DNA of 64,000 nt from Lishizhenia tianjinensis (lineage in GTDB: Bacteria > Bacteroidota > Bacteroidia > Flavobacteriales_D > Crocinitomicaceae). The stretch is taken from the NCBI RefSeq assembly GCF_900116425.1, contig NZ_FPAS01000005.1, positions 1-64,000 on the forward strand, written 5' to 3'. Each line of letters opens with the position of its first letter. Position 1 is the stretch's first letter. Positions 1 to 28,618 of this stretch are shown here, piece after piece. The position numbers and the translations under genes were made by a program. Below the pieces are notes generated by a model. It was not told where the DNA came from and did no database searches. It saw nothing but the letters and a program-made list of their open reading frames with translations.

Positions 1-3000
1 CTCTCTATTACTACTGTATCATTACTTTAAGTGGAGGTGGATGTTCTGAAATTGTTTCGAACACTGCCCAAGTCATTGTTCAACCTCAAGCTATTATTGA
101 TGTACAACCTTTGGCCTTTGACAGTATTTGTGTGGGAGGTAGTATTAACAATCCTCTTACGGTTAGTTATACTCAGGGAGTAGGAAATCCAAGTTACCAG
201 TGGTTTGTGAATGGTACCCAAATCACAAATAATTCACCTTCTTTTACACCTCCTAATTTTAATACTACGGGAGATTACTTTGTAGAAGTCATTATTGATT
301 TAGATGGAAACGGTTGTGACGCTGTAGGATCTGACTCCACACACATCACTGTACTTCCTGACCCCGTAATTAATCTTCAACCCATAGATGCTATTTATTG
401 CCAAAACGCCAGTAATCCTGATACTCTAGTGGTAAGTGCTTCGGGTGGTTTAGGAAATTACAGCTACCAATGGTTTAGTAATACAACCAATAATAACACC
501 TCTGGAAATGCGATTCCTGGGGCTACTGATTCTACTTTCGTTCCTAATGTTAGCAATATAGGTGACATCTATTATTACTGTGAAGTCACACAAACAGGTG
601 CAAATTGTAATGTCACTTCAAATACTGCTCTTATACAAATTACACCTGCACCCGTTTTCAGCACCTTACCTTTATCTACGCAAGATTTATGTCTAGATGG
701 AATTGCCTTACCCCTCGAAGTAAATTATCAAAATGGAACAAGCAGTGCAAATTATCAATGGTACGTCAATACTGTAAATTCAAATTCTGGAGGAGTAATC
801 ATACCTGGTGCAACTTCAAACATTTACACCCCATTAAGTGATAGTAGTACATTAGGTAGCAATTATTATTACTGTATTATAAGTTTCAATATTGGAGGTT
901 GTTCCGAAATTATTTCACCTGTTGGACAAGTGAATGTTTATCCTCAACCTGTTATTTCAATTCAGCCGCTAGAAAATGATAGTTTGTGTGCGGGCGGAAC
1001 CTTATCTTCTCCGTTGGAGGTTGCATATAGCTCTGGAATAGGAAACCCAAGTTATCAATGGTATTTAGGAAATGTATCACTTGTGAATGATACCCTTTCA
1101 ACTTATACTCCACCTATGTACTCAACAACAGGAAATTTTAATTATTCAGTGGAAATAGAATTAGATGGGAATGGTTGTAATTTACTTACTTCCGACACTT
1201 CATTCATCGTGATCTTACCCGATCCAATAATTACATTGCAACCGCAAGACGCTGAGTATTGTCAAAACTCTCAATCAACTCTTCCTCTAAGCGTTTCTTC
1301 AACGGGTGGTATTGGTGCAAATTCATACCAATGGTATTACAATGTATCTACTAATACCTCTGCAGGAACATTAATTCCAGGAGCAACGGACTCAACCTAC
1401 ATCCCCTCAACAGCAATTGTTGGAACTGTATACTATTATTGTGTTCTAACTCAAACAGGAGTAGATTGTTCAACTACAAGTCAACCAGCAGCGATAGTTG
1501 TTAACGCACCTCCGAGTATAGATCAACACCCCATTGGATACCAAGAACTTTGTTTAGGAGGAAGTACAATCCCCTTGTCAACATCTTACATTAATGGTAC
1601 GGGGACAGGAAACTATCAGTGGTACGTAAACACAACTTATTCAAGTCAAAATGGAACTATTATAAATGGAGCAACCACATCTTCCTACACTCCACCATCC
1701 AACCAAGTAGATAGCCTTTATTACTACTGTGAAATCAATTTTCTAACTGGAGGTTGTGATATGATTACATCCAACATAGCAACGGTTGTAATTAATATAG
1801 ACCCTATTATTACTGTAGATCCTATAGTTTCTCAAACCATTTGTTTCGAGGACCCCATAGACTCTGCATTATCTATATCGCATCAAGGTGGGGTGGGGAA
1901 TCCAATTTATCAATGGTACTTAGTTGGAAGTCCAAATCAAGCTATACTTGGCGAAACAGATAGTTCCTATTTTCCAATTATGAACCAACCCGGTAATTTC
2001 AATTATTTCGTCACTTTAAATTATACTGGGAATGGTTGTGATGTAGACACTTCTCAATTGGCAGAAATCATCGTGAATCCACTCCCTACGTTAACCAATA
2101 TTATGGATACTTTAATTTGTAACAATACCCTTACAAATATTAGCCTATCGGCTTCAATTACCTCTAATTTTAATTGGTTAGCAATTGATAACCCTAATGT
2201 TAGTGGAGAAACTTTACAACTTCAGAACACCTCATTTATTCAGGATTCCCTAACCAACACTACGAGTTCTCCACAAATAGTTGAATATATTGTTACTCCT
2301 ATTTCCATAGTAGATAATTGTCCAGGCCGTGATACTATAATACAGGTTATTGTTCAACCAGACATAGAATTAAGCATGCCTACCAGCATCGAAATTTGTT
2401 CTGGATCTCCTGTAAACGTTTTACTTGCTTCTAATGTAGCTGCTGAATTCAGTTGGTTCGTGAGTATAGATAATCCAAACGTTAGCGGCGAATCTATTTC
2501 AACAAGCACCAATACTCTAATTAATGATTATCTGATAAACAACTCAAACACAAATCAGGTAGTAGTATACTCAGTATTTCCGGTTTCAACGGAAGGTAAT
2601 TGTATAGGAGAAGCTCAACCACTAGTTGTAACCGTTAAACCACCCATAGAATTGATTAGTTCCGATAGTTTAGCCGTTTGTTCTAATACCCCTTTAAACC
2701 TTCATTTGGTAGCAAACACTAATGTTAACTTCAGTTGGTATGCAGATCCATCCGTAGACATATTGAATGAAACCACAAGTGTGGTAAATGGGGATATAAT
2801 CGACGACATACTTGAAAACCTGGTCAACTTTCCACAGGAGGTAATCTATCATGTAATTGCAACTTCAACAGTAAATGGTTGCTCTAGCCCTATTATACCG
2901 GTTAGTGTATTTGTTAACCCTATACCAACCGTAGACCCGCTAACCGACACCATTTTTTGTCATAACGAAATCGTAGCTCCAATTTCATTTAATGGTCCCG

Positions 3001-7246: not shown

Positions 7247-8755
7247 ATGAACGAGAAGTTTGAGAAGATATTTGAGCACAGTAATGAAGGATTATTGGTG
7301 GTAAATAGCTCGGGGGTGATAGACACTTTGAACCCGAAACTTTTGAAACTTTTTGGTTATGATGATGAAAAGGAAATCTTGGGTCAAAAGCTTGAGATAC
7401 TGATCCCTAGAAGGTATACCAAGAGTCATGTTGGCTACCGTGAAAAATACAACGCCGCTCCCTCTAACCGTTCTATGGGAGCTGGGAGAAACTTGATGGC
7501 TTTGCGTAAAGATGGTACTGAATTTCCGGTGGAAGTCAGTTTGAGTCACTACGAAGAAAACGGCGAAACCAAATCCATTGCCTTTGTGGTAGACATCTCT
7601 AAACGTGTGGCCATAGATACGGAATTGAAAAAGCTAAACAACCAATTGGAAGAGGAAGTTGTGAAGCGTACCAAAGAGGTAAATGCGCAAAACAAAATGT
7701 TACGTTCCATAGCCGAGAACTTCCCAAATGGAAACATCTTTATCATCGATAAAAACTTCATTATAGAATGGGCCGATGGTTCGATGTTACGTAGCATGGG
7801 ATTGACCGACTCTTCGTTAAAAGGAATCTCTTTTATTGAACGTTTGGGAGATCATGTAAAACCCGTGATTACCGAAAAACTACCCCGTCTTTTCAAGGGT
7901 GAAACCATTAAATTTGAAATAGAATTTAAGGAAAAATACTTCTCTATTTACGGGGTTCCATTAACTGAAAAAAATGGAGCTACCGACAGTGCTTTGTTGG
8001 TAGAAATGGACGTGACCATAGAGAAACATGCTGAATTGAACATAGAACGCGCCTTGCAAAAGGAGAAAGACTTGAATGAATTGAAATCGCGTTTCGTGGC
8101 CATGGCTTCGCATGAATTTAGAACTCCTTTGAGTACCATAGATACCTCTGCCACCCTTATTTCTAAGTACACAGAAACGGAACAAGATGAAAAGCGCTCC
8201 GTGCACGTGAAGCGTATTAAACGTATGGTTTCGAATCTTACGCAAATTTTGAACGACTTCCTTTCTTTGGAAAAATTAGAGTCTGGGTTAATCAAACCCA
8301 ATGTTTCTAGTTTCAATTTCCATTCTTTAATTGAGGAAGTAATAGATGAAGTGGGATTGATCAAGCGCAAGGAACAATTTATAGAACTCGATTACGGTTT
8401 AACGACCTCACAAGTCATCTCATCGGATCAAAACATCTTGAAAAACTGTATTACCAATTTGGTTTCTAACGCCTGTAAATACAGTCCAGAAGGTGCAACA
8501 ATTGACCTCATCATTAGCGAAGAAAATGGTAACATACATGTTAAAGTGAAGGATCAAGGAATTGGAATACCGGAAGAAGATCAACAACGCTTATTTTCTC
8601 GTTTTCACAGGGCAAGAAATGTAACCAACATCGAAGGTACTGGACTGGGACTCAACATTGTAAAAAGATACATGGATGTTTTGGAAGGAAACATCACCTT
8701 TACCAGTAAAGTGGGCGAAGGATCTACCTTTGAATTGTGCTTTCCAAAAAATTGA
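7247..8755 (+). CDS. PAS-domain sensor histidine kinase, FixL-like
   Basis: 502 residues with no obvious membrane segment, so probably cytoplasmic. Order: PAS domain (~5-120), short coiled coil (~122-150), second PAS-like domain (~150-260), HisKA with SHEFRTPL (phospho-acceptor His289), and an HATPase domain with the N box (NLVSNACKYSP), G1 (DQGIGI) and G2 (GTGLGL). The first PAS aligns with the haem PAS of FixL: His61 of SHVGYREKY falls at the proximal haem ligand and Arg81 of GAGR at the oxygen-contacting arginine. These residues also occur in PAS domains without haem, so oxygen sensing is an inference. The position directly before a receiver-CRP regulator and the cbb3 oxidase genes fits a FixL role. 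The ATG follows a plausible promoter by 17 bases. Confidence 0.88.
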   Translation: MNEKFEKIFEHSNEGLLVVNSSGVIDTLNPKLLKLFGYDDEKEILGQKLEILIPRRYTKSHVGYREKYNAAPSNRSMGAGRNLMALRKDGTEFPVEVSLSHYEENGETKSIAFVVDISKRVAIDTELKKLNNQLEEEVVKRTKEVNAQNKMLRSIAENFPNGNIFIIDKNFIIEWADGSMLRSMGLTDSSLKGISFIERLGDHVKPVITEKLPRLFKGETIKFEIEFKEKYFSIYGVPLTEKNGATDSALLVEMDVTIEKHAELNIERALQKEKDLNELKSRFVAMASHEFRTPLSTIDTSATLISKYTETEQDEKRSVHVKRIKRMVSNLTQILNDFLSLEKLESGLIKPNVSSFNFHSLIEEVIDEVGLIKRKEQFIELDYGLTTSQVISSDQNILKNCITNLVSNACKYSPEGATIDLIISEENGNIHVKVKDQGIGIPEEDQQRLFSRFHRARNVTNIEGTGLGLNIVKRYMDVLEGNITFTSKVGEGSTFELCFPKN

Positions 8756-8765
8756 TAAATATCAA
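8752..8765. promoter_or_regulatory. FNR-type operator before the 178-aa gene
   Basis: TTGATAAATATCAA is a perfect match to the FNR consensus TTGATnnnnATCAA. It overlaps the kinase stop codon. A -7-like element (CATCTTTG, 8810-8817) just before the next ATG would place the operator centre about 62 bases upstream of transcription start, a classic class I activator spacing. Confidence 0.7.
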
Positions 8766-8821
8766 TTTTCTTTACCTTAATCGTCAATATTTAAAGTACT
8801 AACAACACTCATCTTTGTAAG

Positions 8822-9358
8822 ATGTTTAAGCTGTTAGTCATAACGTCTTTAGAGGAAAGTATAGTTCCTTACCTGCACAATGTTCTCGAGTACTTTGCCG
8901 ATAACAACGTGCACATAGATGTGATTCACGGATATGAACCGCAGAAAGACAGTGCCATTAGCATAATGAACTTAAACGACCTGATTTACAGGGAGAAAGT
9001 TAAAAAAATGGACGCTATCGTTTTACAAAACAAAGCTTTAACACAACATTTAATAAATTTTCAGCTCCACGGAAAAGTTCGTATTGGCGAGATAGAAGAC
9101 TTGGTTCAAAATCAACTAGATGCGAACAAATACGACGCTATCCTGTTTACCTATGAAATTCCAAAGAGCGTTAGTAGAAAATTAAAACAATATCAGGTCC
9201 CCCTATTCTTACCAACCTCTTCTCGTTATACCTATCACTTGTCTTTCGAACAAAATTCGGAAGATACTACATCAATAGGTGAACTTACTGAAGTAATTCG
9301 TCGTCTAAATATGGTTGAGCAAGAGGGGGGATTTCTGTTAAACGTACCTCACATTTAG
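8822..9358 (+). CDS. Unknown cytoplasmic protein behind an FNR-type operator
   Basis: 178 residues, not recognised. It starts with a beta strand (KLLVITS) and alternates predicted strands and helices (VHIDVIHGYEP, MDAIVLQNKAL, YDAILFTYEIP, VPLFLPTS), suggesting a Rossmann- or Usp-like alpha/beta fold. It has no signal peptide, no membrane segment and no cysteine, so it is unlikely to bind a metal cluster through Cys. It lies between the histidine kinase and its probable partner regulator, separated from the latter by 42 bases, and a perfect FNR box precedes it. A role in the low-oxygen response, perhaps as an accessory to the two-component pair, is inference from position only. A universal-stress-like protein is one alternative. 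Confidence 0.7.
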   Translation: MFKLLVITSLEESIVPYLHNVLEYFADNNVHIDVIHGYEPQKDSAISIMNLNDLIYREKVKKMDAIVLQNKALTQHLINFQLHGKVRIGEIEDLVQNQLDANKYDAILFTYEIPKSVSRKLKQYQVPLFLPTSSRYTYHLSFEQNSEDTTSIGELTEVIRRLNMVEQEGGFLLNVPHI

Positions 9359-9400
9359 GCTGATTTTACTTACCTTTATCTTATACATCAATACTAAGCA

Positions 9401-10450
9401 ATGAAGAAAATATTACTCATAGAAGACAACGAAGATTTTAGGTTAAATACTACAGAAATTTTAGAGCTTAACGACTATGAAGTAATCACCGCGTGTAATG
9501 GTGTGGAAGGTATAGAAAAGGCCATTCTTACTAAGCCAGACATCATTATTTGTGATGTAATGATGCCTCAATTGGACGGTTATGGTGTAATTAACATCCT
9601 GACTAAAAATCCAGAAACTTCGAGCATTCCTTTTATCTTTTTAACAGCCAAAGCTGAAAAAACGGACATTCGTAAGGGAATGAATTTAGGAGCAGATGAC
9701 TATTTGTTGAAGCCCTTCGACGAACAAAGTTTGATCTCTTCTATAGAAACGCGTATTGCCCGTAACCAGAAAATCAAATCGCAAATTTTGCAAGCTTTTG
9801 TGGGTCAGGGTGCCGTGATAGAAGAAGACAACAAACACCAAGATATTAAGAGTTTATTGGAGCACAAGAAAACCAAATCTTACAAGGCAAAAGAAGAGTT
9901 GTATAGAGAAGGTGATTTTGCCCATTACTTATACTATGTAAACAAAGGGAAAGTTAAATGTCAGAAAACAGACAGTTACGGAAAAACCTTTGTCACACAA
10001 ATCATTAACCCCGAAGAATTTTTCGGTTACATGGCCCTTTTGGAAGGAAGTGAGCACAACGAAAGTACCATCGCTTTAGAGGATACAGAAATCACACTTA
10101 TTCCTAAAAAGGAATTCTTAAAGTTGATAGAAAGTAACCGAGAAGTAGCTACCCTATTCATCAAATTATTGACAGGGAACATCAAGGAAAAAGAGGAAAA
10201 ACTTTTGCAATTGGCTTACGCTCCAGTTAAAGAAAGAATTGCGCGTACACTTTTAAACTTATGTGAGAAAGATGGGGTGCATACCTTAAATATTTCTAGA
10301 GACGACTTGGCCAACATCGTAGGAACGGCCAAAGAATCTTTGGTGCGTAATTTAAGCACCTTTAAAAGTGAAGGTGTAATACGTACCAGCGGTAGAGAAA
10401 TCACAGTTCTAAAGCCAGAAGAATTGTCGCGCCTCATCGACCTGGTATAG
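9401..10450 (+). CDS. Response regulator fused to a CRP/FNR-type transcription factor
   Basis: 349 residues. Residues 1-122 are a CheY-like receiver with acidic pocket EDNED, phospho-acceptor Asp52 (IICDVMMP), a conserved Thr in FLTAKA and Lys in LLKPF. Residues ~155-270 are a cyclic-nucleotide-binding-type beta roll (YREGDFAHYLYYVNKGKV, FFGYMALLEG), and ~275-349 are a CRP/FNR winged helix. The recognition helix (GTAKESLVRNLSTF) keeps the Glu and Arg that read TGA/TCA half-sites in CRP and FNR. The N-terminal cysteines that hold the FNR iron-sulfur cluster are absent, so control is probably by phosphorylation from the kinase upstream. In effect it is a FixJ-FixK fusion and the best candidate to bind the three nearby TTGA-N6-TCAA operators. 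A TACCTTTA -7-like element lies at 9371-9378. Confidence 0.88.
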   Translation: MKKILLIEDNEDFRLNTTEILELNDYEVITACNGVEGIEKAILTKPDIIICDVMMPQLDGYGVINILTKNPETSSIPFIFLTAKAEKTDIRKGMNLGADDYLLKPFDEQSLISSIETRIARNQKIKSQILQAFVGQGAVIEEDNKHQDIKSLLEHKKTKSYKAKEELYREGDFAHYLYYVNKGKVKCQKTDSYGKTFVTQIINPEEFFGYMALLEGSEHNESTIALEDTEITLIPKKEFLKLIESNREVATLFIKLLTGNIKEKEEKLLQLAYAPVKERIARTLLNLCEKDGVHTLNISRDDLANIVGTAKESLVRNLSTFKSEGVIRTSGREITVLKPEELSRLIDLV

Positions 10451-19852: not shown

Positions 19853-21205
19853 ATGAGTGAATTAATACGCAAATACAACCAACCTGGACCTAGATATACA
19901 AGTTACCCCACAGTTCCTTTTTGGAAGGATATGGACATCGATAAGGAAGCTTGGAAAAAGAGTTTGGTAGAAGCCTTTAAAGTAAGACGCAACAAAGAGG
20001 TTAGTTTATACATACACCTCCCGTTTTGCGAGCAACTCTGTACCTTTTGTGGCTGTCATAAACGCATCACAAAAAACCATGCGGTGGAAGAACCCTATTT
20101 ACTTACAGTTTTAAAAGAATGGCAATTGTACACCTTCTTTCTTGGAGAGGACATGGTGATAAAGGAAATTCATTTAGGAGGAGGAACACCTACTTTTTTC
20201 CAACCCGAAAATTTAGAAAGACTTATTCAGGGCATACGCGCACTTAGTTTATTTGACCCAAACGTGAGTTTAAGCTTTGAGGCGCACCCCAACAACACTA
20301 CGGAAGAACACCTTAAAACTTTTAGAGAACTAGGTTTTAATCGTTTAAGTTTTGGAATACAAGATTACGATCCGAAGGTGCAAAAAACCATTAACAGAAT
20401 TCAATCTTTCGAGCAGGTTCAATCTGTACATCAATTGGCTTTGGATTATGGTTTCACTTCTGTGAGTCATGACATTATCTACGGTTTACCTCATCAAACC
20501 TTGGAGAGTATACAAGATACGATAGCTAAAACAGCGCAGTTAAGACCCCACCGTATTTCCTTCTACAGTTATGCACATGTTCCCTGGATCAAAGGTGTTG
20601 GTCAACGCGGTTACAGCGAAGACGACCTTCCTAAAAACGAAGAGAAGCAAGCCTTATACGAATATGGAAAAGCAGAATTATTGAAATTAGGCTATGAAGA
20701 AATAGGGATGGATCACTTTGCTTTACCGGAGGATGAATTGTCTATTGCCCATCACAAGGGTGAACTTCACCGCAACTTTATGGGCTATACAACGCAAAGT
20801 ACAGAAGTGATGATAGGTTTGGGTATGTCGGCCATCTCCGATGCTTGGGGAGCCTTTGCACAGAACGACAAACACGTTGAAGATTATCAAGCGACAATCA
20901 ACAGCGGTGAATTAGCCGTTTTTAGAGGTCATTTTTTAAGCGAAGAAGACGAAATCGTGCGTAGACTCATCTTAGATTTGATGTGTAGGTATAAAGCCTC
21001 TATTCCAGCTCAAATTGCAGAAAGTGAATTTATCAATCAAGAGTTGCTTCAAGAACTTATCAGCGATGAACTTATACATTACAAGGGTAATGAATTAGAA
21101 ATTTTGGAAAAAGGAAAACCCTTTCTTCGCAATGTTTGCATGTGTTTCGATTTGAAACTCAACCAACGCGAAAAAAGGGAGCAATTATTTAGTTCTACGA
21201 TATAA
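19853..21205 (+). CDS. hemN: Oxygen-independent coproporphyrinogen III oxidase
   Basis: 450 residues. The N-terminus PGPRYTSYPTVPFW and the CX3CX2CXC motif CEQLCTFCGC (Cys59, 63, 66, 68) mark true HemN; GGGTPTFF is the SAM-binding strand. It converts coproporphyrinogen III to protoporphyrinogen IX without oxygen, so haem can be made when oxygen is scarce, which fits its position at the end of the cbb3 cluster. It differs from the HemW homologue near 62 kb, which lacks the fourth Cys. No clear terminator lies in the 15 bases before the convergent gene. Confidence 0.93.
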   Translation: MSELIRKYNQPGPRYTSYPTVPFWKDMDIDKEAWKKSLVEAFKVRRNKEVSLYIHLPFCEQLCTFCGCHKRITKNHAVEEPYLLTVLKEWQLYTFFLGEDMVIKEIHLGGGTPTFFQPENLERLIQGIRALSLFDPNVSLSFEAHPNNTTEEHLKTFRELGFNRLSFGIQDYDPKVQKTINRIQSFEQVQSVHQLALDYGFTSVSHDIIYGLPHQTLESIQDTIAKTAQLRPHRISFYSYAHVPWIKGVGQRGYSEDDLPKNEEKQALYEYGKAELLKLGYEEIGMDHFALPEDELSIAHHKGELHRNFMGYTTQSTEVMIGLGMSAISDAWGAFAQNDKHVEDYQATINSGELAVFRGHFLSEEDEIVRRLILDLMCRYKASIPAQIAESEFINQELLQELISDELIHYKGNELEILEKGKPFLRNVCMCFDLKLNQREKREQLFSSTI

Positions 21206-21220
21206 TATCCTTCGAATAAC

Positions 21221-21868
21221 TTAGATGAATAATCCGTTTTGCATGGCGTACATCACCAATCCAACACGAGATTTTACACCTAATTTATCAAAAACAGATG
21301 CTCTGTAGTTATCTATGGTTTTCACGCTTAAACACATTTTGTCAGCGATTTTATCATAGGTATCTTCAGAGCAAGCTAATTCTATAAAGCGCAATTCTTT
21401 AGGGTTTAAAGCATCTTGTTTTTCCAATTCAGACTTGTCACCGTTAATGGTTCCTATCAATTGAGAGGTCATCTGTTCTGTATAATGAAAACCTTTGTCC
21501 ACCATATCAATAATCGCACGCTCTAACTCCTCAGGATCTACATCTTTTGAGATATAACCTTTGATACCCAAACGCAACATTTTTAATAGAGAAGTATCAT
21601 CATCATTCATGGTCACCACCAAAAGTTTCATTTTTGGATACAACTCCTTTAATTGCTTAACGGTTTGAAAACCATCCATTACGGGCATGTTAATATCCAC
21701 TAAGGCTAAATCGGGAATGATTTGGTTTTCTAACTGCTCTAAGAAATGTTTTCCATGATCCGCTTCGCAAACCACTGTAAAATTTGAATTGATGTTTTGG
21801 ATTAAGTTGGCTAATCCACTTCTAAAAAGTTTATGATCGTCTACTACAGCGATGTTAATGTTTTCCAT
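21221..21868 (-). CDS. NarL/FixJ-type response regulator
   Basis: 215 residues. Receiver (1-120): acidic pair in VVDDHK, phospho-acceptor Asp58 (LALVDINMPVMDGF) and Lys in YISKDV. A linker precedes a LuxR-type helix-turn-helix (~150-215: LNPKELRFIELACSEDTYDKIADKMCLSVKTIDNYRASVFDKLGV). It is the partner of the kinase encoded one base upstream, and the two are surely cotranscribed. Targets are unknown; the neighbouring Cys-motif and membrane-protein genes are natural candidates. Confidence 0.92.
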   Translation of the reverse strand: MENINIAVVDDHKLFRSGLANLIQNINSNFTVVCEADHGKHFLEQLENQIIPDLALVDINMPVMDGFQTVKQLKELYPKMKLLVVTMNDDDTSLLKMLRLGIKGYISKDVDPEELERAIIDMVDKGFHYTEQMTSQLIGTINGDKSELEKQDALNPKELRFIELACSEDTYDKIADKMCLSVKTIDNYRASVFDKLGVKSRVGLVMYAMQNGLFI

Positions 21869-21869
21869 T

Positions 21870-22625
21870 TTATATACTAATTTGATAGGTTGTACCCTTA
21901 CCTGGAACTGATTTTAAATCAAAACTTCCTCCGATAAATTTACACCTTTCTTTGATATTTAATATTCCTGAACCCAAATTGACTTCCTCCAAGACAAAAC
22001 CTTTACCATTGTCTTCTATACGAATGAAACTGTCGTTTTCATCCATCTTAATGGTGATAAAAACTTCGGTGGCTTCTGCGTGTTTGATTACGTTGTTGAG
22101 AATTTCCTGCACCATACGATACATGAAAATTTCTTTATCCTTATCAATCTCAACATCTTCAGTAGGTAGTTCGAGATGTATTTTTAACTCGCCCGCTTTT
22201 TCGTAGCGATCTACATCCATTTTAATCATACCAAATAACCCGAAACGATTTAGATTTTCTCCCTTTAAACTTACAGACAATGATCGAATATCCTGAATGT
22301 GCTGTTTAATTAACTCCGTGGATTGTTTAAGATTTTCTTCTCCACCTTCATCTACATGTTTGGTTAACAGACTTAAGTTCATCTTTATTAAAGAAGCAAC
22401 TTGCCCGAAATTATCATGCAACTCTCTTGAGATTGTGGTCAATGTTTCTTCCTTCATCTCTATTTGAGCTTGAAGTACCGCTTGTTTAAATTGTTCCCTT
22501 TCCAACTCAAAAACCTCTTGTTTTCTTCTGTACAGAATAATAAAGTAGATAATGAATACCAACAAGGAAATGACCAGTAGCGTACCGGTAATTACAGAAA
22601 ATATTATTACGAATTGATCAGACAT
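21870..22625 (-). CDS. Membrane sensor histidine kinase, HisKA_3 (NarX-like) family
   Basis: 251 residues from the ATG at 22625; a GTG 15 bases upstream is possible but less likely. One N-terminal membrane helix (VIIFSVITGTLLVISLLVFIIYFI) leads to a coiled coil and the HisKA_3 motif RELHDNFGQVASLI, whose His is phosphorylated, then an HATPase domain with NVIKHAEA and EDNGKGF, ending in GKGTTYQI. There is almost no periplasmic part, so the signal is probably sensed in the membrane, in the cytoplasm or through a partner protein. The regulator gene follows at once. Its membrane-protein neighbours could be such partners, which is inference. Confidence 0.9.
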   Translation of the reverse strand: MSDQFVIIFSVITGTLLVISLLVFIIYFIILYRRKQEVFELEREQFKQAVLQAQIEMKEETLTTISRELHDNFGQVASLIKMNLSLLTKHVDEGGEENLKQSTELIKQHIQDIRSLSVSLKGENLNRFGLFGMIKMDVDRYEKAGELKIHLELPTEDVEIDKDKEIFMYRMVQEILNNVIKHAEATEVFITIKMDENDSFIRIEDNGKGFVLEEVNLGSGILNIKERCKFIGGSFDLKSVPGKGTTYQISI

Positions 22626-22763
22626 AAAGTAAAAAATCACATCAAGCAGTGTGCTCTAAATTGGTCTTAATATAGTTAAACTAAATCTTTCTTTTTTAGG
22701 CTAGCGAAAATTCTAATGTAACTAGAAATTCATTTTAACCACGTAATACTTAGTGACCTCTTA

Positions 22764-23435
22764 TTAATTGACCGTTCTGACTTGATAAGTGTTACACTCT
22801 TTAGAGCAAGCATGTCCCAAACCAACGTAATTCCCACTTATTACCCCATCTTTCATTTGTCCAACTGAGAAGTTCAAATGTCTTGGTACTGTATTTCCTT
22901 TCGCCGGAGAAAGCACAGGAATAAACACAAACACATCTTTCTTATTCTCTTCTGTGGTTGTTTTATCCAAACCTAAAAAGTCCAAAAATTCTTTCGTAAA
23001 ATTAACTGAAGTAATTTTTTCACCATTGGGTAACACCAAGACTTCCTCTCCAGACAGAACCGCTTGTTTCAAATCCTCATTTAACTGTACAGGATTTGGC
23101 GTCTCATCAAAACTGTTAACGTCTTTTGAACTTATGGGCAAAGTAACAGGATGCTGAGATGAAGGCATCATAGCATCAAGGTTTACCGTTAAATTCTTTA
23201 TGGGAGAAAGATACACCTCCATCTTCGCTACTTCAGTAGTTCCTGTACATGCAAGTGTTAAACAGAGTTCTTTCGCCTTTTGAAGGGCAAGTCCTATCTC
23301 TTCTCTAGAAAAAGCATAAGCCCTTATGAAATTGCCATAAGCATCAAAAAATAAATCATTAGAACTTACATTTTGATACATATGTATAGACTTTTGAATT
23401 TGGACAGGGGATAAATTTACAGTTGGAATTTCCAT
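22764..23435 (-). CDS. Unknown protein with C-terminal Cys motif, paralogue of the 26.6 kb gene
   Basis: 223 residues, no signal peptide or membrane helix, not recognised. It shares with the 26558-27238 product an ENKKDVFVFIPV segment and a C-terminal DGVISG...CSKECNTYQ block, so the two are paralogues. The spaced cysteines near the C-terminus (CxxxC) could bind a metal or form a disulfide. The middle contains a possible Pro/Ser-rich linker (residues ~90-115). A TACATTTG -7 element on the minus strand (23455-23462) gives a good promoter 19 bases before the ATG. The NarL-type kinase gene lies 138 bases downstream on the same strand, so this gene may belong to that transcription unit. Confidence 0.72.
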   Translation of the reverse strand: MEIPTVNLSPVQIQKSIHMYQNVSSNDLFFDAYGNFIRAYAFSREEIGLALQKAKELCLTLACTGTTEVAKMEVYLSPIKNLTVNLDAMMPSSQHPVTLPISSKDVNSFDETPNPVQLNEDLKQAVLSGEEVLVLPNGEKITSVNFTKEFLDFLGLDKTTTEENKKDVFVFIPVLSPAKGNTVPRHLNFSVGQMKDGVISGNYVGLGHACSKECNTYQVRTVN

Positions 23436-23454
23436 GGTATCTATTTGGTAGGTC

Positions 23455-23462
23455 CAAATGTA
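23455..23462 (-). promoter_or_regulatory. -7 promoter element of the 223-aa Cys-motif gene
   Basis: Read on the minus strand the bases are TACATTTG, a perfect match to TAnnTTTG, about 20 bases before the start codon. No clear -33 TTG/TTTG partner is visible at the usual spacing. Confidence 0.5.
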
Positions 23463-23524
23463 AGCGCTAGTAAGTGGCTTTGTTCATAATCCGATAAAAT
23501 ACAGGCATAAACATGCATGAAAAG

Positions 23525-23539
23525 GGGGGAAATCCCCTA
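23525..23539. promoter_or_regulatory. GGGG-AAAT-CCCC inverted repeat, possible operator
   Basis: GGGGAAATCCCC (23527-23538) is an inverted repeat in an otherwise AT-rich gap between divergent signals: the minus-strand promoter at 23455 and a plus-strand promoter at 23584. Its centre lies about 63 bases before the predicted plus-strand start. A regulator is not known; the nearby NarL-type protein is one possibility. Confidence 0.3.
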
Positions 23540-23591
23540 ACGATTTCAGGCTCTCCCCTTGGGCTAAAAACTTAAAGGCTTAGCATCTTTG

Positions 23592-23680
23592 TGTCATATA
23601 TAATTGAGAACTTATATAATACGCATTTTACTAACCACTCCAAGCGGCATTGATGATCATCAATGCCGCTTGTTTTTTAT
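23592..23680 (+). ncRNA. Candidate small RNA with strong intrinsic terminator
   Basis: A TTG (23560-23562), 21 bases, then CATCTTTG (23584-23591) resemble a Bacteroidetes promoter. About 50 bases later a perfect 32-bp palindrome (23641-23672, CAAGCGGCATTGATGA and its complement) is followed by GTTTTTTAT on the plus strand only. Both flanking genes are on the minus strand, so the terminator serves neither; the simplest reading is an independent RNA of about 80-90 bases. No protein of sensible length is encoded. Confidence 0.45.
23641..23679 (+). terminator. Intrinsic terminator, plus strand
   Basis: A 16-bp perfect stem (23641-23672) is followed by GTTTTTT. On the minus strand the sequence after the stem is GGAGTGG, so termination is directional and ends the candidate small RNA. 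Confidence 0.75.
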
Positions 23681-24441
23681 CCCTTTTTCCCCTCTACAAG
23701 TATTTTCGGTTTTAAAAATATAATGTACAGCATCACGGTATACCCCATGTCCAAGCAAATGGTGGAAAGATCAAAAACCATCAACCTGTATTCAATTAAT
23801 ATTTCCAAAGGAAGTTTGTACAATACCGGTCTAAAGGATAAGGACCAGAATTTCACACAGTAGATCAATACGTTGGCAAATGAAAAAAGGAATACTGGAT
23901 TTTTAGCGAGCGGAATATAACTCGGACTTTCCATCAATTGGACAAAGCTCAACAAACACAGCACGATGGTATAGATGCAAAAGATAGCAACAGACAAAAA
24001 AGGAAATGAATAATCCCTCGAAAATACAGACGGATTAAAAATTATCAAGAATAAAAATCCCAAGCTCACCCAATAAAAGCGCTTTTCTCCTTTGGGCGAA
24101 AACTTTAAATACAGAGAAAAAATAAGATAATTCAATGCATAGAGAAAAACAGTAATGAGCAAATAGTTAAAGCGATTATTGATCTCCAGCACTCTGAAGA
24201 ACATCATTGTTGATTCTAACAAAAACACACCTAAAAAAAGCAAGTTGATAAACCGAGCCATGCGCGTTAATTTAGGGAAATGAATTAGACCGTATAAGAC
24301 TCCTGTTAATAAGACAAAGTTGTAGTAAAAATACTGAACACTAAGTTGATCTAAGTAGTAATAAAGGAGGGAAACAGCTACGAACAAGGTTAAATCTAAC
24401 CCTAGAAATCGTTGAATACTTTGAACGCGTTGCAGTAGCAT
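23677..24441 (-). CDS. Multi-pass membrane protein, paralogue 1 of 3
   Basis: 254 residues, not recognised. Seven or eight hydrophobic helices (about 18-32, 40-53, 64-81, 93-112, 121-134, 147-168, 183-203, 229-245) and short loops; no soluble domain. The C-terminal third (NPVFLFSFANVLIYCVKFWSLSFRPVLYKLPLEI in part) is closely matched by the 25718-26476 product and more distantly by the 24662-25447 product. The repeated FRPVLxKLP loop is the best family signature. The topology recalls seven-helix sensor modules found at the N-terminus of some Bacteroidota kinases, here as a stand-alone protein; that comparison is inference. A minus-strand TATCTTTG (24458-24465) lies 17 bases before the ATG. 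Confidence 0.7.
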   Translation of the reverse strand: MLLQRVQSIQRFLGLDLTLFVAVSLLYYYLDQLSVQYFYYNFVLLTGVLYGLIHFPKLTRMARFINLLFLGVFLLESTMMFFRVLEINNRFNYLLITVFLYALNYLIFSLYLKFSPKGEKRFYWVSLGFLFLIIFNPSVFSRDYSFPFLSVAIFCIYTIVLCLLSFVQLMESPSYIPLAKNPVFLFSFANVLIYCVKFWSLSFRPVLYKLPLEILIEYRLMVFDLSTICLDMGYTVMLYIIFLKPKILVEGKKG

Positions 24442-24457
24442 AAGGAGCTGATTTACT

Positions 24458-24465
24458 CAAAGATA
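24458..24465 (-). promoter_or_regulatory. -7 promoter element of membrane paralogue 1
   Basis: The minus-strand sequence TATCTTTG is a perfect TAnnTTTG, 17 bases before the ATG at 24441. The rest of the 220-base gap to the next gene is AT-rich with nothing else recognisable. Confidence 0.5.
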
Positions 24466-24661
24466 TAAGATTTCAGGTAAATGTTCGGTTTATTTGACAG
24501 AAGACATAAAGATGATGATTATTGACAAAACCTTAAGGAAGAAACCTTGGGCTATCAATGCATTGACTTCGAACTTATCATCAAATTTCATTATTTAAAA
24601 AATCACTCTATTTACTCCCTCCGCTTGGGTGCATAATCAAAGTACTTGTTTGAATTGGACA

Positions 24662-25447
24662 TTAAGCACCAGCTTTAGGGCCGCTGTTTTCTTTAGGGAA
24701 GTGTTTGATTTCAAGGCTTAACGCATAAGCTATCAAGAAATAACCTATAATTTGAATTAGAATATGAAAAGTATGAAAGACAAACCTGTATTGAAAAAGA
24801 AAATCTTTTGGAAATTTAGAGTAAACAGGTAAGAAAGATATGACCCAAAACAGGGTGCTATAAATCAGTAAATTGCCTAACGAATACACAAATAGAGTAT
24901 CCTTTTTTAAGGGAGTTAGCTTGGGTCTATCAAATAGGGCATACATGTAACACAAGGAAAACAACACGTTAATTAGGCACAAAAAAGAAATCGAAATTTT
25001 CGGTGTGAAGATTAACCCTAGGTTTACCAGGTAATCTAGAACAGATACACTAACCCCTAATAAGGTCACAATTACCAATATCTTATTTGTTAAAATTGAA
25101 TTTAATACGGAATTGGTATAGAGCATCCAATTTAAAACGAGGCCGGCGATGGATAATAGCGTATAGATTAAGAGAATTCCAACATCATCCAAGGTAAACA
25201 AAAGCTGTTGTCCGCTTATTTCTGCAAACAATACAAAGAATAAATACAGCAATAAAGCCTTTCCACGTAGAGATAACTTTTTAAACTGAAAAACCCCGTA
25301 AGCTAAAGATGAAACCAGAACAAGTAAGTAAACCAAAAATGGAACTGATTTATTGAACAGCCAGAATTGATTAATATCTAAAACACCTAAGATTGCAAGG
25401 AGACTAGCAACGATAAAAATCTTATGATACTTGAATACTTTCATCAT
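24662..25447 (-). CDS. Multi-pass membrane protein, paralogue 2 of 3 (most divergent)
   Basis: 261 residues from Met at 25447; the frame could open at an ATG at 25522, adding 25 residues, but the shorter form aligns end to end with the 252- and 254-residue paralogues. It has about eight hydrophobic helices. The region LFVYSLGNLLIYSTLFWVISF, then SKFPKDFLFQYRF, matches the family block in the neighbours but lacks the FRPVL motif. The tail is basic (EIKHFPKENSGPKAGA). Function is unknown. It sits in series with the other two paralogues, each separated by 190-270 bases, so separate promoters are likely. Confidence 0.65.
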   Translation of the reverse strand: MMKVFKYHKIFIVASLLAILGVLDINQFWLFNKSVPFLVYLLVLVSSLAYGVFQFKKLSLRGKALLLYLFFVLFAEISGQQLLFTLDDVGILLIYTLLSIAGLVLNWMLYTNSVLNSILTNKILVIVTLLGVSVSVLDYLVNLGLIFTPKISISFLCLINVLFSLCYMYALFDRPKLTPLKKDTLFVYSLGNLLIYSTLFWVISFLPVYSKFPKDFLFQYRFVFHTFHILIQIIGYFLIAYALSLEIKHFPKENSGPKAGA

Positions 25448-25717
25448 GCTGCTTTTATATATGCTTTCTTCAAAAGTTTGAATTCTACTCCTTGGGTTTG
25501 TTAATATCCATATAAAGATCATAAACAATAATCGTATAGCTTAAAAGATACCACATTTTTAGTTTCTAAAATGCCAAGTAAACATATCAGAATCACATGA
25601 AGAACACTTCGTGTATTTCTTTTAAAAAAACAGACTTACACTCATTTTGCTATCGTACCCACCAAAACCATCAATAAATCAGAATATTCAACAGTTAGTC
25701 TACTTCTATAGTTAAAC

Positions 25718-26476
25718 TCAATTTCCCTCCAGTTGAACAGGTTCCTTTTTATCTCCATATAACAGAATAAATACAAATACGCAATAAGCTATTTCCATTA
25801 TATAATTTGAAAAATTGAAGAGTAAGAACTTATATTTCAACATGATTTCCATAGGCAATTTATGCAGTACGGGACGAAAAGACACATTCCAAAACTTCAA
25901 AGAATACATTACAAGTGTAGCTACTGAAAACAAGAATACAGGATTAATCCATAATCTGGTTTTAATAGGTACTTCTATTAAATGATAGGGTGTATATAAA
26001 GACATTGAAATGACGTAAATACAAAACAAGCTGACAGCAATTGATGGAAAACCTGATAGATTCCAATGGTATATCATTATACTTAAAAAAAGACTTGCAA
26101 CTAGCAGTGAAAAAAGATTAAGCCCTTTTTTTTGTTTCCCAATTTGTTCTAAAAACTGACTAAAAATTAAGTGATGAAGTAGAAGGAGAAAAAATAATAA
26201 CAAAAAATAATACAAAGGAACTAACAGCTTTAACTCAACCAGTATCAACACTCCTAATTCAGATAAAAAAACTCCCAAAAATAAAATGGTGACTAATTTT
26301 AAAATTTTAGATCTCTTTTTGTATTGCGTAATCCCAATAATGAATCCACTAAGTAGTGTTAGATTATATACCAAACTATGGACGGAAAGGAAATATATAT
26401 TTACCCCAATATGATCTAAGTAAAAAGCTATAACTAAAAAACTTAAACTAATAGATACAAACAAACTCCCTTTCAT
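25718..26476 (-). CDS. Multi-pass membrane protein, paralogue 3 of 3
   Basis: 252 residues with seven or eight hydrophobic helices. It is the closest relative of the 23677-24441 product: both have NPVFLFS, a KFW-SFRPVL-KLP-EI block and a last helix ending in a short polar tail. Not recognised as a known transporter or receptor. A minus-strand TAATTTTG (26495-26502) precedes the ATG by 19 bases, and a terminator stem-loop separates it from the Cys-motif gene upstream, so it is its own transcription unit. Confidence 0.7.
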   Translation of the reverse strand: MKGSLFVSISLSFLVIAFYLDHIGVNIYFLSVHSLVYNLTLLSGFIIGITQYKKRSKILKLVTILFLGVFLSELGVLILVELKLLVPLYYFLLLFFLLLLHHLIFSQFLEQIGKQKKGLNLFSLLVASLFLSIMIYHWNLSGFPSIAVSLFCIYVISMSLYTPYHLIEVPIKTRLWINPVFLFSVATLVMYSLKFWNVSFRPVLHKLPMEIMLKYKFLLFNFSNYIMEIAYCVFVFILLYGDKKEPVQLEGN

Positions 26477-26494
26477 TCTAATAAACTAAGTTTT

Positions 26495-26502
26495 CAAAAT
26501 TA
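26495..26502 (-). promoter_or_regulatory. -7 promoter element of membrane paralogue 3
   Basis: The minus-strand sequence TAATTTTG is a perfect TAnnTTTG, 19 bases before the ATG at 26476 and just below the terminator stem-loop of the upstream gene. Confidence 0.5.
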
Positions 26503-26518
26503 ATCGAAGATGAATAAA

Positions 26519-26549
26519 GTATGAACTAGTTTTATTAACTAGTTCATAC
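26519..26549 (-). terminator. Stem-loop after the 226-aa Cys-motif gene
   Basis: GTATGAACTAGTT and its exact complement AACTAGTTCATAC form a 13-bp stem with a 5-base loop. On the minus strand it is followed by TTTATTC, a short T-rich tail, nine bases after the stop codon of the 226-aa gene. Confidence 0.6.
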
Positions 26550-26557
26550 CCTCAGTT

Positions 26558-27238
26558 TTACATAAATACGTTTTGATATCCATTACATTTTGTTGGACAA
26601 AGTTCTGAGAAATCAAAAATATCACCCGACACTATACCATCATTAACGTAAGCTAATGCAAAAGTTAAATAAGGTTTTTGTGTTAAACTATCCACAGGTC
26701 TTATCATAGGAATAAAAGCGAAGGTATCATTTTTATTCTCTGATGTTGGTTGATCTTGAAGATTCAAACCTTCTATCATTGCTCTTGTAAAATTATAACC
26801 TTTCACTTTTTTGTCTGATGCTAAATGCAAGGGTTTTGGTTCAGCATCATTGATGTAATTATTGTACATATTCGTAAAATCAGCTGCCGTAACTGTTTTA
26901 CCATCTGGATTTTTAGCGTTGTTTGTATTAAAAGTTAAAGGAGCAGACAAAGGAGTTGAGCTACTCACATACAAAGCGTTTACATCTATTATTCCGTTAT
27001 CTACCCTACACAAAACTAAGTTCAAGAAATCCATGGATGCACCAGGGTAAGTACTTAATGCCGAAACCATAAAATACTCACTTGTCGCACTACTTCCTAA
27101 CGCTTCAAATAATTCTTGTCTTGTAAAAATATGCCCGGTAATTTTGTCATCATTTGGATCTACAAAATTTGCACTTGTACCATTGGCAACATAATCCTGT
27201 ACTTCAGGTTTAATAGTTGATAAATTAACTAATCCCAT
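26558..27238 (-). CDS. Unknown protein with C-terminal Cys motif, paralogue of the 22.8 kb gene
   Basis: 226 residues, no signal peptide, not recognised. The C-terminal half aligns with the 22764-23435 product: ENKNDTFAFIPM against ENKKDVFVFIPV, and DGIVSG...CPTKCNGYQ against DGVISG...CSKECNTYQ. The N-terminal half shares a FTRQELFEAL / FSREEIGLAL helix. The two proteins bracket the three membrane paralogues, which suggests a linked function. Its ATG lies 18 bases after the histidine-phosphatase stop, so it is probably the last gene of the pxp transcription unit, with a terminator directly behind it. Confidence 0.7.
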   Translation of the reverse strand: MGLVNLSTIKPEVQDYVANGTSANFVDPNDDKITGHIFTRQELFEALGSSATSEYFMVSALSTYPGASMDFLNLVLCRVDNGIIDVNALYVSSSTPLSAPLTFNTNNAKNPDGKTVTAADFTNMYNNYINDAEPKPLHLASDKKVKGYNFTRAMIEGLNLQDQPTSENKNDTFAFIPMIRPVDSLTQKPYLTFALAYVNDGIVSGDIFDFSELCPTKCNGYQNVFM

Positions 27239-27256
27239 ACTTGGTTATTTATTGAT

Positions 27257-27766
27257 TTAAAATTTAATTGTTTGAACGGTAACTTGGTTACCTTGTAGCA
27301 GTAGTTTATAGATGGTTTTGTATTCGTGATCTCCAATCTTTTCTTGCGGTCTTTTTCCACCAAAGTGTTCTATCATCGGTAATAATATATCGCCATGTCC
27401 ACATACAGCGCTTACTTGAGCCTTGTTTTGTTGAATATCATCAACAACTTGTTCCCAAGCTTCCCATTCGTATAAATTTAAGTGGGCTTTTGTACTATCC
27501 AACAAAGGATTGATAGTCATTAGGTTTCTAATATACTTGGTACTATAAACCTCTTCCAGTTTACTGTCTTTCAAAAGTTCACTAATCTGCAGCGCCTGTT
27601 TTTCTCCTTCTAGTGTTAAAGCAGGATTCTTTTCTGTACTGTCTAACACCTTCTCTGCGTGCCTAAATAAATAAACCGTTTTCGTTGAAGATAAATTTGA
27701 ACAAGATGTTAGAAATAACAGGTTCAGTAGCAGTAAAATAACGAAAGGAGATTTTAGTTTATTCAT
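27257..27766 (-). CDS. Histidine phosphatase family lipoprotein
   Basis: 169 residues. A signal peptide with lipobox (LLFLTSCSNL, Cys22) predicts a lipid-anchored periplasmic or outer-membrane protein. The catalytic RHAE (FRHAEKV) and a second conserved His in CGHGD place it in the histidine phosphatase (phosphoglycerate mutase-like) superfamily, near the short SixA-like forms. The substrate is unknown. It lies nine bases after pxpC and is probably cotranscribed with it, although a lipoprotein is an odd partner for a cytoplasmic oxoprolinase. Confidence 0.85.
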   Translation of the reverse strand: MNKLKSPFVILLLLNLLFLTSCSNLSSTKTVYLFRHAEKVLDSTEKNPALTLEGEKQALQISELLKDSKLEEVYSTKYIRNLMTINPLLDSTKAHLNLYEWEAWEQVVDDIQQNKAQVSAVCGHGDILLPMIEHFGGKRPQEKIGDHEYKTIYKLLLQGNQVTVQTIKF

Positions 27767-27775
27767 ACCATGAAA

Positions 27776-28618
27776 TTAGAATTTCATTTTAAATCTAAGC
27801 CTATCCCTCGTACTTTTTTGTGCAATTTTGGAGAGGGCAAAAGCAGTTAATTGAAGTACTCTTGGGTATCCTCCACTTGTAGCCGCATCTTTCATAAGGA
27901 TGATTAATTTTCCTCCCGAAGTTAGTTGTACCGTGCCTGGTATTACCGGACTCGATAAAATTTCGGGTATATCATTGGCAAGGCTTTCCTCCAATTGGTA
28001 GCCCATTCTGTTGTTGAGATTAGCAATAGTAAAAGTTGAATTAAACAACTCCTCCTTTTGTTGCTCAGATAAATGATCATATTCAGGTCCTGGTGTAACC
28101 TCTACTTCTTCGGAAAACAAATCTGCATTTACGACCACATTTCCATATTTATCTAAGAAATTAGCTTGAGGTAAGTAGTTTAATTTATCCCCTTGATCAC
28201 ACCTAATTTTTTCGGTAATTCCACTAAACCAACTTCTACAACCATACTGCTCTGGTGTTTGAAAACCACCTTTAATGGCCATGTACAATCGTATACCTTT
28301 TTGGCAATACCCTACCTTTACTTCGCTTTGGGCAGTTATCGCATAAGCTTTGTTCAACTCAATTTTTTCACCGTTAATTTTTACTTCAGCTTTTGCCCCA
28401 GAAAAGGCAATAACTGCCGCTTTTTCAAAATGCATGTGCGGACCAATTTGGGTGATCTCTAATACGGCATCACTGGTTTTATTATTCACCAAGGCATTAG
28501 CAATTTGTGCTGAAAAATCATCCATACAACCTGAAGAAGGAATTCCTTTATTGCGGTATTTCCATCTTCCTTGATCTTGTACAGAGGTATAAAAACCAGG
28601 TTTGATAAATGTTAGCAT
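27776..28618 (-). CDS. pxpC: 5-oxoprolinase subunit C
   Basis: 280 residues of the KipA / biotin-dependent carboxyltransferase-like family. The N-terminus FIKPGFYTSVQDQGRWKYRNKGIPSSGCMD is characteristic, as are NRMGYQLE and the C-terminal KDAATSGGYPRVLQL. PxpABC together hydrolyse 5-oxoproline (pyroglutamate) to glutamate using ATP; B and C form the kinase-like part. The start overlaps the end of pxpB by seven bases, in the usual A-B-C order. Confidence 0.92.
   Translation of the reverse strand: MLTFIKPGFYTSVQDQGRWKYRNKGIPSSGCMDDFSAQIANALVNNKTSDAVLEITQIGPHMHFEKAAVIAFSGAKAEVKINGEKIELNKAYAITAQSEVKVGYCQKGIRLYMAIKGGFQTPEQYGCRSWFSGITEKIRCDQGDKLNYLPQANFLDKYGNVVVNADLFSEEVEVTPGPEYDHLSEQQKEELFNSTFTIANLNNRMGYQLEESLANDIPEILSSPVIPGTVQLTSGGKLIILMKDAATSGGYPRVLQLTAFALSKIAQKSTRDRLRFKMKF

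Follow-up and report, generated by a model that had tools for sequence, protein, structure and literature searches.

A widespread Bacteroidota gene set of tail-bearing protein, seven-helix membrane protein and short histidine kinase, and its expanded copy in Lishizhenia tianjinensis

Seven genes lie on the minus strand of a contig of Lishizhenia tianjinensis (Bacteroidota; NZ_FPAS01000005.1, positions 1 to 64,000, the whole stretch analysed and hereafter the window) in the order CysA-TM1-TM2-TM3-CysB-HK-RR. HK is a histidine kinase and RR a response regulator; the TM proteins belong to a family of seven-helix membrane proteins (7TM) and the Cys proteins to a family, here called X, with a conserved C-terminal tail. 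An earlier interpretation made from the letters alone (the sequence-only reading) had taken the group for a possible new membrane signalling locus. The locus is not peculiar to one genome: it is an expanded copy, with three 7TM and two X genes through local expansion, of a cassette, X-7TM-HK-RR, that is widespread in Bacteroidota. The arrangement suggests that X and 7TM together form a receptor split from its kinase.

The locus and its genes

All seven open reading frames (ORFs) that the sequence-only reading had described are present, with the two Cys genes bracketing the three TM genes (Table 1). TM1 and TM3 share 37% identity (E ~1e-35), TM2 and TM3 share 25% (E ~1e-14) and CysA and CysB share 26% (E ~6e-21); judged by these comparisons, the paralogy which had been proposed within the TM set and within the Cys set is far above chance. 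The C-terminal motif CxxxCN-YQ is found in both Cys proteins, as CPTKCNGYQ and CSKECNTYQ. Up to E 1, neither Pfam nor NCBIfam matched any of the five non-kinase proteins, which had been called unrecognisable. HK matched HisKA_3 and HATPase_c, and RR matched Response_reg and GerE; lying 1 base pair (bp) apart, they form the kinase/regulator pair of a HisKA_3/NarL-type two-component system. The description of HK as a kinase with almost no sensor also stands, as its ~256 amino acids (aa) contain a single hydrophobic stretch, at the N-terminus, and the usual kinase sensor domain is not present.

Table 1. Coordinates of the seven genes and of nearby candidate elements in the window
Feature	Positions	Strand	Description
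CysA	26558..27238	-	X-family protein, 226 aa, two alpha/beta domains, C-terminal tail FDFSELCPTKCNGYQNVFM
Hairpin after CysA	26516..26552	-	terminator-like, 16 pairs, just after CysA; consensus scan only
TM1	25718..26476	-	stand-alone membrane protein, 252 aa, TM2/TM3 paralogue
TM2	24662..25528	-	TM1/TM3 paralogue, 288 aa counted from TTG
TM3	23677..24441	-	TM1/TM2 paralogue, 254 aa
Hairpin between TM3 and CysB	23641..23672		14 pairs, T run on + strand; consensus scan only
Palindromic element	23524..23537		GGGGGGAAATCCCC, ~90 bp upstream of CysB; candidate regulator site, speculative
CysB	22764..23435	-	second X-family protein, 223 aa, tail ACSKECNTYQVRTVN, directly before HK
HK	21870..22640	-	HisKA_3 histidine kinase, one N-terminal membrane helix, without sensor domain
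RR	21221..21868	-	NarL-type response regulator: receiver and GerE helix-turn-helix

Judged from the sequence, two start sites may need revision: HK likely begins at an ATG near 22625 and not at the GTG at 22640, and TM2 probably at an ATG near 25447 and not at the TTG at 25528. In a PF07730 search of the genome, in which eight candidates were scored, the window HK was the sole HisKA_3 kinase, so one kinase of that class would serve all three TM and both Cys proteins. A genome search with CysB returned no copy other than CysA and CysB itself.

Recurrence across Bacteroidota

The check which the sequence-only reading had itself proposed, a search for the same gene set in other genomes, came out in its favour. 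Among 150 genomes of the same taxonomic family, own genome included, a profile of the three window TM proteins matched in 10 and a profile of the Cys proteins in five. All 12 non-self TM loci fetched from the family showed the order X-7TM-HK, with RR directly after HK in 10; one further locus had RR upstream of X and one had none nearby. The X proteins of these loci are 132-272 aa long, with tails such as CLPCPTACP, CDPCPPACP and MPCPPVC. The Cys profile alone had matched only four of the 12 loci, so the X-7TM pairing was not built into the search.

A phylum survey covered 395 Bacteroidota genomes, with at most seven (7TM) or 10 (X) candidates scored per genome, so that the prevalences are lower bounds. 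Narrower profiles matched in 49 (16-row 7TM profile) and three (10-row X profile) of the 395, and wider ones in 88 for 7TM and 79 for X, with both in 74; about a fifth of the sampled genomes, as a lower bound, thus carry the cassette. Since the rows of the X profile were picked beside 7TM genes, the fair count is that of the 345 genomes that gave no rows: 38 had 7TM and 33 had X, with both in 28, 7TM alone in 10 and X alone in five (Fisher p ~8e-28, relatedness ignored). The two families, which the sequence-only reading had placed in one system, do not occur independently.

Searches anchored in turn on the kinase, on 7TM and on X gave a consistent arrangement. In the kinase-anchored scan, an alignment of 12 kinases was run once against a genome collection and the best 80 of 561 loci were inspected. 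All 12 kinases of the query had been taken from loci identified by way of 7TM, and four or more of the 80 loci were known beforehand; the scan is a strong test, though not a wholly independent one, and the remaining loci need not have had a 7TM gene. A 7TM-family gene (E<1e-3, ending at most 300 bp from HK) lay upstream in 78 of the 80. In the two other loci the contig ends 694 and 49 bp away from the kinase, so that 7TM is directly upstream of HK in all 78 assessable loci; this HK subfamily is tied to the 7TM protein, and the proposal that the stand-alone membrane proteins act as receptors for the kinase remains the best reading. RR followed in 66 of the 78 loci and X was recognised by profile in 56; among the 22 loci without a profile X, 11 had a tail-bearing ORF by eye and in three another 7TM gene came first. 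The record titles were those of Bacteroidota (Chitinophagaceae, Flavobacteriaceae, Fulvivirga, Mucilaginibacter, Saprospiraceae and others), with one exception. A contig of a metagenome bin labelled Moraxellaceae (L147, NVVG01000275.1) carries X, 7TM, HK and RR; the label may reflect a binning error or transfer.

From the 7TM side, a 7TM gene was called in 85 loci, and in 78 of them the next same-strand gene was HK; the remaining seven were the window, L076, L113, L114, L120, L127 and L132. For the 97 7TM genes of these loci, X was found directly upstream of 80 automatically and of four more by hand. From the X side, 103 of 128 X matches had a 7TM gene within 1.5 kb downstream among the matches listed; for the 46 X matches in genomes not used for the profiles this number was 27, again among the matches listed. 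Twenty-two of the 25 other X matches lay in 20 fetched loci, and in all 20 a multi-helix gene adjoins X or its tandem copy, as recognised by the 7TM profile in 17 and by hydropathy alone in three. The three unfetched matches are CysB, G437:C69 (at a contig edge, seen in L145) and G507 (weak). A plasmid search with one 7TM protein (from L125) gave no match. In L247, L248 and L249, X proteins with the tails CPPYC, CPPNC and CPPYC stand beside a membrane protein of five to six segments and 189-204 aa; the 7TM profile does not recognise these proteins, which are possibly a second receptor type.

Spacing within the cassette is tight. The median gap is 11 bp between X and 7TM (n=114), -13 bp between 7TM and HK (n=109) and 1 bp between HK and RR (n=89), values which are biased downwards because the longest possible ORFs were used. 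The X-7TM pair is a putative modular sensor unit that can be multiplied before one kinase, as in L096 (X-7TM-X-7TM-HK-RR) and L115 (X-7TM-X-7TM-HK). L114 has X and then three 7TM genes, whilst L238 and L241 have the order X-7TM-X-HK-RR, with the second X directly before HK as in the window. The kinases of relatives are short (median 264 aa, n=110), and 97 of the 110 have one helix in their first 80 residues.

The two protein families and a candidate regulatory site

The AlphaFold2 model of TM3 (mean pLDDT 90.5) shows a seven-helix bundle with an extra N-terminal helix. In each of the three X classes, lysine and arginine are on average more frequent in loops 1, 3 and 5 and at the C-terminus than they are in loops 2, 4 and 6, a bias which indicates an N-out/C-in topology and is least clear for loops 2 and 3. 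The first structural neighbours of the model were proteorhodopsin, among the rhodopsins, and G protein-coupled receptors (GPCRs). Foldseek gave probabilities up to 0.99 and an E of 0.11 at best, and a comparison with VIA gave the best neighbour Z 12.7 with a root-mean-square deviation of 5.0 over 223 residues. The model supports a seven-helix receptor-like fold for TM3, and not descent from rhodopsins or GPCRs. Conserved positions of the family, in TM3 numbering, include Gly189, Trp185, Asn89, Glu76 and Glu/Gln100, with TM3 itself carrying Ala189, Leu185 and Leu100. The middle of helix 7 has no lysine in TM1-TM3, and no helix-7 lysine is found among the 22 most conserved columns of the family. 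A search of the PDB by sequence gave no convincing match for 7TM, the best (E 0.11) being an unrelated ATPase. Pfam and NCBIfam searches of 97 7TM members likewise gave none that convinced, with matches to one member each and two for 7TMR-DISM_7TM. PADLOC, run on ten proteins, returned only a weak match to HK (E 0.0014).

The X proteins combine a variable body, within an overall range of 100-370 aa, with a conserved tail. The AlphaFold2 model of CysA (mean pLDDT 84.6, pTM 0.84) contains two runs of helix, strand, helix and strands. CysA, CysB and their relatives were linked to the X proteins of the phylum by hhalign (probability 91.6, P 8e-7, tail included). In an alignment of 63 X proteins, from which four upstream ORFs of 990, 334, 310 and 68 aa had been excluded beforehand as plainly not X, the most informative columns after Met1 were those of the tail, namely C218, C214 and P215 (the last in 62 of 63; CysA numbering). 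Pfam and NCBIfam scans of the 63 members gave nothing convincing, with matches to one member each, nor did a PDB search by sequence, and Foldseek gave no PDB match for X below E 0.2. A second structural look reached Z 5.1 at best, with sliding-clamp proteins, and is too weak to use; the absence of a fold match does not show that the fold of X is new.

The tail is the most conserved element of X, but its Cys pair is frequently absent. Among 167 X proteins, 88 carry a CP-n-C pattern in their last 45 residues, as compared with seven of 813 other ORFs of the same stretches. Where the X profile did not match, each of the last 34 X-7TM pairs had been accepted only if X had a proline close to its end; leaving these pairs out gives 78 of 133, and the HK-anchored part by itself gives 24 of 53. 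Seventy-nine of the 167 tails fail the similar CPxxC rule, 13 of them keeping some cysteine in the last 30 residues, and the Cys motif that the sequence-only reading had made the mark of these proteins does not define the family. Proline is more constant, being present in the last 20 residues of 155 of the 167 paired X proteins, as compared with 416 of the 813 other ORFs, and in 74 of the 79 that fail the Cys rule. In the Cys-poor tails it often follows a D/N-x-G-like stretch (NHGQIYP, YDFGTIYP, GRPPSLIY). As proline is kept where the Cys pair is missing, the tail cysteines look replaceable. A Cys pair acting as a metal or redox centre needed for function was considered and rejected on the same 79 tails. 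Mapped on the 7TM tree, the class of tail changes 15 times, where shuffled labels give 56 changes on average.

Expression of the X genes may be controlled at a dyad. The palindromic element upstream of CysB is the only GGGG-(2..9)-CCCC dyad in the 64 kb window, and a sequence GGGGA-AT-rich-TCCCC is also present upstream of X in L112, L176, L194, L204, L205, L208, L224 and L236, with L176 and L236 being close variants. These dyads lie ~70-206 bp upstream of X, and their hosts are Aquimarina (two copies in tandem), Kordia, one more locus and the window. The dyad was found in seven of 171 X upstream regions and in none of 603 others, although it had been noticed before counting and four of the seven loci are from Aquimarina; in a matched set, restricted to loci that also gave control genes, it occurred in two of 115 regions as compared with none of 603 (p 0.025). 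The genome holds nine GGGGA-n-TCCCC sites, of which L271, L273 and L278 are terminator-like, L276 is inside a gene and L272, L274 and L275 are near gene starts. The dyads at C2:809835 (L272), C3:28082 (L274) and C3:238981 (L275) are in promoter-like positions and precede, for example, the genes for a protein of 140 aa whose start is signal-like and for a possible outer-membrane protein of 224 aa; the genes behind them are possible members of a regulon. The dyad is a lead for autoregulation only. The hairpin just after CysA could raise the abundance of X above that of the 7TM proteins. Rfam, at the gathering threshold, gave no match in 20000-28000. Elsewhere in the window, cytochrome oxidase-like genes are preceded, in 7247-10450, by genes for a PAS-type histidine kinase, a protein of 178 aa and a receiver-CRP/FNR-like regulator; read from its ORFs, this is an ordinary-looking respiratory signalling region.

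A proposed composite receptor, its alternatives and known systems

The gene linkage, order, tight spacing, pattern of conservation and predicted topology and folds recur across the phylum. From these we infer contacts of X with 7TM and of 7TM with HK. HK has no room to sense, 7TM is its constant neighbour and X is the neighbour of 7TM, so that the simplest arrangement is a three-protein receptor. We consider it somewhat probable that the receptor is a composite of X and 7TM, separate from its kinase, in which the X tail docks on the 7TM protein. X would bind a signal, possibly a ligand, or a partner, and would dock its conserved C-terminal tail on the stand-alone 7TM protein; contacts between membrane helices would carry the change from 7TM to the one helix of the short HisKA_3 kinase, and this kinase would phosphorylate the NarL-type RR. 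The single kinase of the window would receive input from two X and three 7TM proteins. A bolder form of this proposal, which we hold to be tentative and rather doubtful, is a bacterial receptor resembling peptide GPCRs, in which the X tail, as a tethered agonist or a released peptide, would switch 7TM and the signal would pass to the sensorless kinase; such receptors would be a widespread class in Bacteroidota that as yet has no name.

Several observations weigh against the composite receptor. By a simple hydropathy rule, 122 of the 167 X proteins have no recognisable export signal and 45 have one (21 of them scored as lipoproteins and 24 with another signal or anchor), and one docking geometry is hard to fit to both sides of the membrane when X occurs both exported and unexported. 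The export state of X changes 25 times on the 7TM tree against 40 for shuffled labels. A tree test of export signal against tail type gave no association, and an inverted 7TM topology was looked for in systems with unexported X and none was seen. The X proteins without a signal could either be exported all the same, act from both sides in different systems or release a tail peptide. In addition, X and 7TM distances are not correlated over 81 loci (Spearman 0.09, partial 0.05; X near saturation). The fold match of 7TM is weak by E-value, and a Z below 13 may reflect a common helical-bundle arrangement. The informative tail columns came from a chosen set; 22 divergent X proteins, CysA and CysB not counted, had been excluded from it, several of these having no clear tail. 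Moreover, eight of the 78 HK-anchored loci have no recognisable X. In the window itself, CysB and not a 7TM gene adjoins HK, the gaps other than HK-RR measure 81-241 bp, and a terminator-like hairpin follows CysA.

Other explanations account for parts of these data. X might be a propeptide whose tail is cleaved, maybe modified at cysteine, exported and sensed outside by 7TM, as a Gram-negative analogue of ComX-ComP-ComA. The conserved element at or near the C-terminus of X, with which some X proteins end exactly (NHGQIYP, YDFGTIYP), would suit this, as would the X-7TM pair arrays of L096 and L115 and the peptide GPCRs among the fold neighbours; ComP and ComA moreover pair the same kinase class with a NarL-type regulator. 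We regard it as unlikely, given that the tail is the most conserved part of X across families, whereas pheromones are usually hypervariable; that X bodies of such size, with a confidently predicted fold in CysA, are unlike short propeptides; and that no recurring protease, modifying enzyme or exporter was noticed in the neighbour listing, whose genes were not scanned against family libraries. The signal of a peptide pheromone system would be hypervariable and covary with its receptor; here the class of tail follows the 7TM tree, but the core of the tail is conserved. Alternatively, 7TM may not be the sensor and may instead process, anchor or export X, with X acting directly on the kinase. This would explain why X proteins without an export signal are paired with a membrane protein, and why an X gene stands directly before HK in the window, L238 and L241. 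The constant neighbour of HK is nevertheless the 7TM gene, HK has almost no periplasmic part for X to bind, and the conserved G189, W185, N89 and E76 of 7TM (consensus letters, TM3 numbering) appear unlike the known protease motifs, making this alternative quite improbable.

The sequence-only reading had left open whether the Cys proteins are partners or outputs of the system. Outputs of the regulator, and not parts of a receptor, could carry the dyad found upstream of some X genes, a post hoc observation in which Aquimarina predominates; an autoregulated receptor operon would show the same site. X is tightly spaced with 7TM and remains beside it in L244, L246, L258 and L264, where no HK was recognised adjoining, and for this last reason partners fits better than outputs, to which we assign a very low probability. 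The view that the families are merely neighbours, by chance or hitchhiking, deserves hardly any credence in the light of their co-occurrence in the row-free genomes. Chance neighbourhood was rejected by the adjacency seen in all three differently anchored searches.

The cassette supplies a candidate receptor for a class of apparently sensorless kinases of the phylum; should the tail act as an agonist, bacteria would have a counterpart of peptide or tethered-agonist receptors. Two protein families are defined which the searched Pfam and NCBIfam copies do not name, and the multiplied X-7TM pairs mean that one genome suffices to ask which signal each pair brings. In the open-access literature, searched by title and abstract with subscription papers outside its scope, no paper was found that describes the X-7TM-HK-RR gene set.

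Among known systems, UhpABC is similar in that its genes for a HisKA_3-type kinase and a NarL-type regulator are accompanied by one for a separate membrane protein. UhpC is a membrane sensor homologous to 12-helix MFS sugar-phosphate transporters, and UhpB has its own membrane domain. The window system differs in its seven-helix protein, its one-helix kinase and its extra partner X; with the UhpB model, the HK of the window gives a match of E 5e-28 that falls far short of the cut-off (98 of 408 bits), and no MFS family was found among the matches of the 97 7TM members at E<=0.01. The 7TMR-DISM proteins (PF07695) are also seven-helix bacterial receptors, in which the 7TM part usually belongs to the same protein as an ectodomain and an output domain. 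Here there are three separate proteins, with 7TM open frames of 187-315 aa, among the matches listed, that are not fused to an output domain; two of the 97 7TM members match PF07695, weakly (best E 4.5e-4), and no window protein does. ComP is a HisKA_3-type kinase with a multi-helix sensor, acting with the NarL-type regulator ComA and with a C-terminal signal element encoded in a neighbouring gene; ComP carries its helices within the kinase, and the short propeptide ComX has an enzyme, ComQ, that modifies it. The likeness to rhodopsins and GPCRs lies in the predicted seven-helix topology and the first structural neighbours (Z up to 12.7), and TM1-TM3 differ from microbial rhodopsins in lacking the retinal-type lysine in the middle of helix 7 and in having no PDB match by sequence.

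Two-component systems with accessory membrane proteins or lipoproteins, such as UhpC and QseG, are already known. QseG is reported to be an accessory lipoprotein of QseE-QseF whose C-terminal region activates the kinase and which binds the kinase itself (PMC12691602). Some X proteins score as lipoproteins and resemble QseG in this respect; the present system differs from QseG/QseE in that HK has almost no ectodomain and X goes with the 7TM protein. What is new here is the two families, which the searched libraries lack, the gene set that recurs across the phylum and a probable receptor separated from its kinase.

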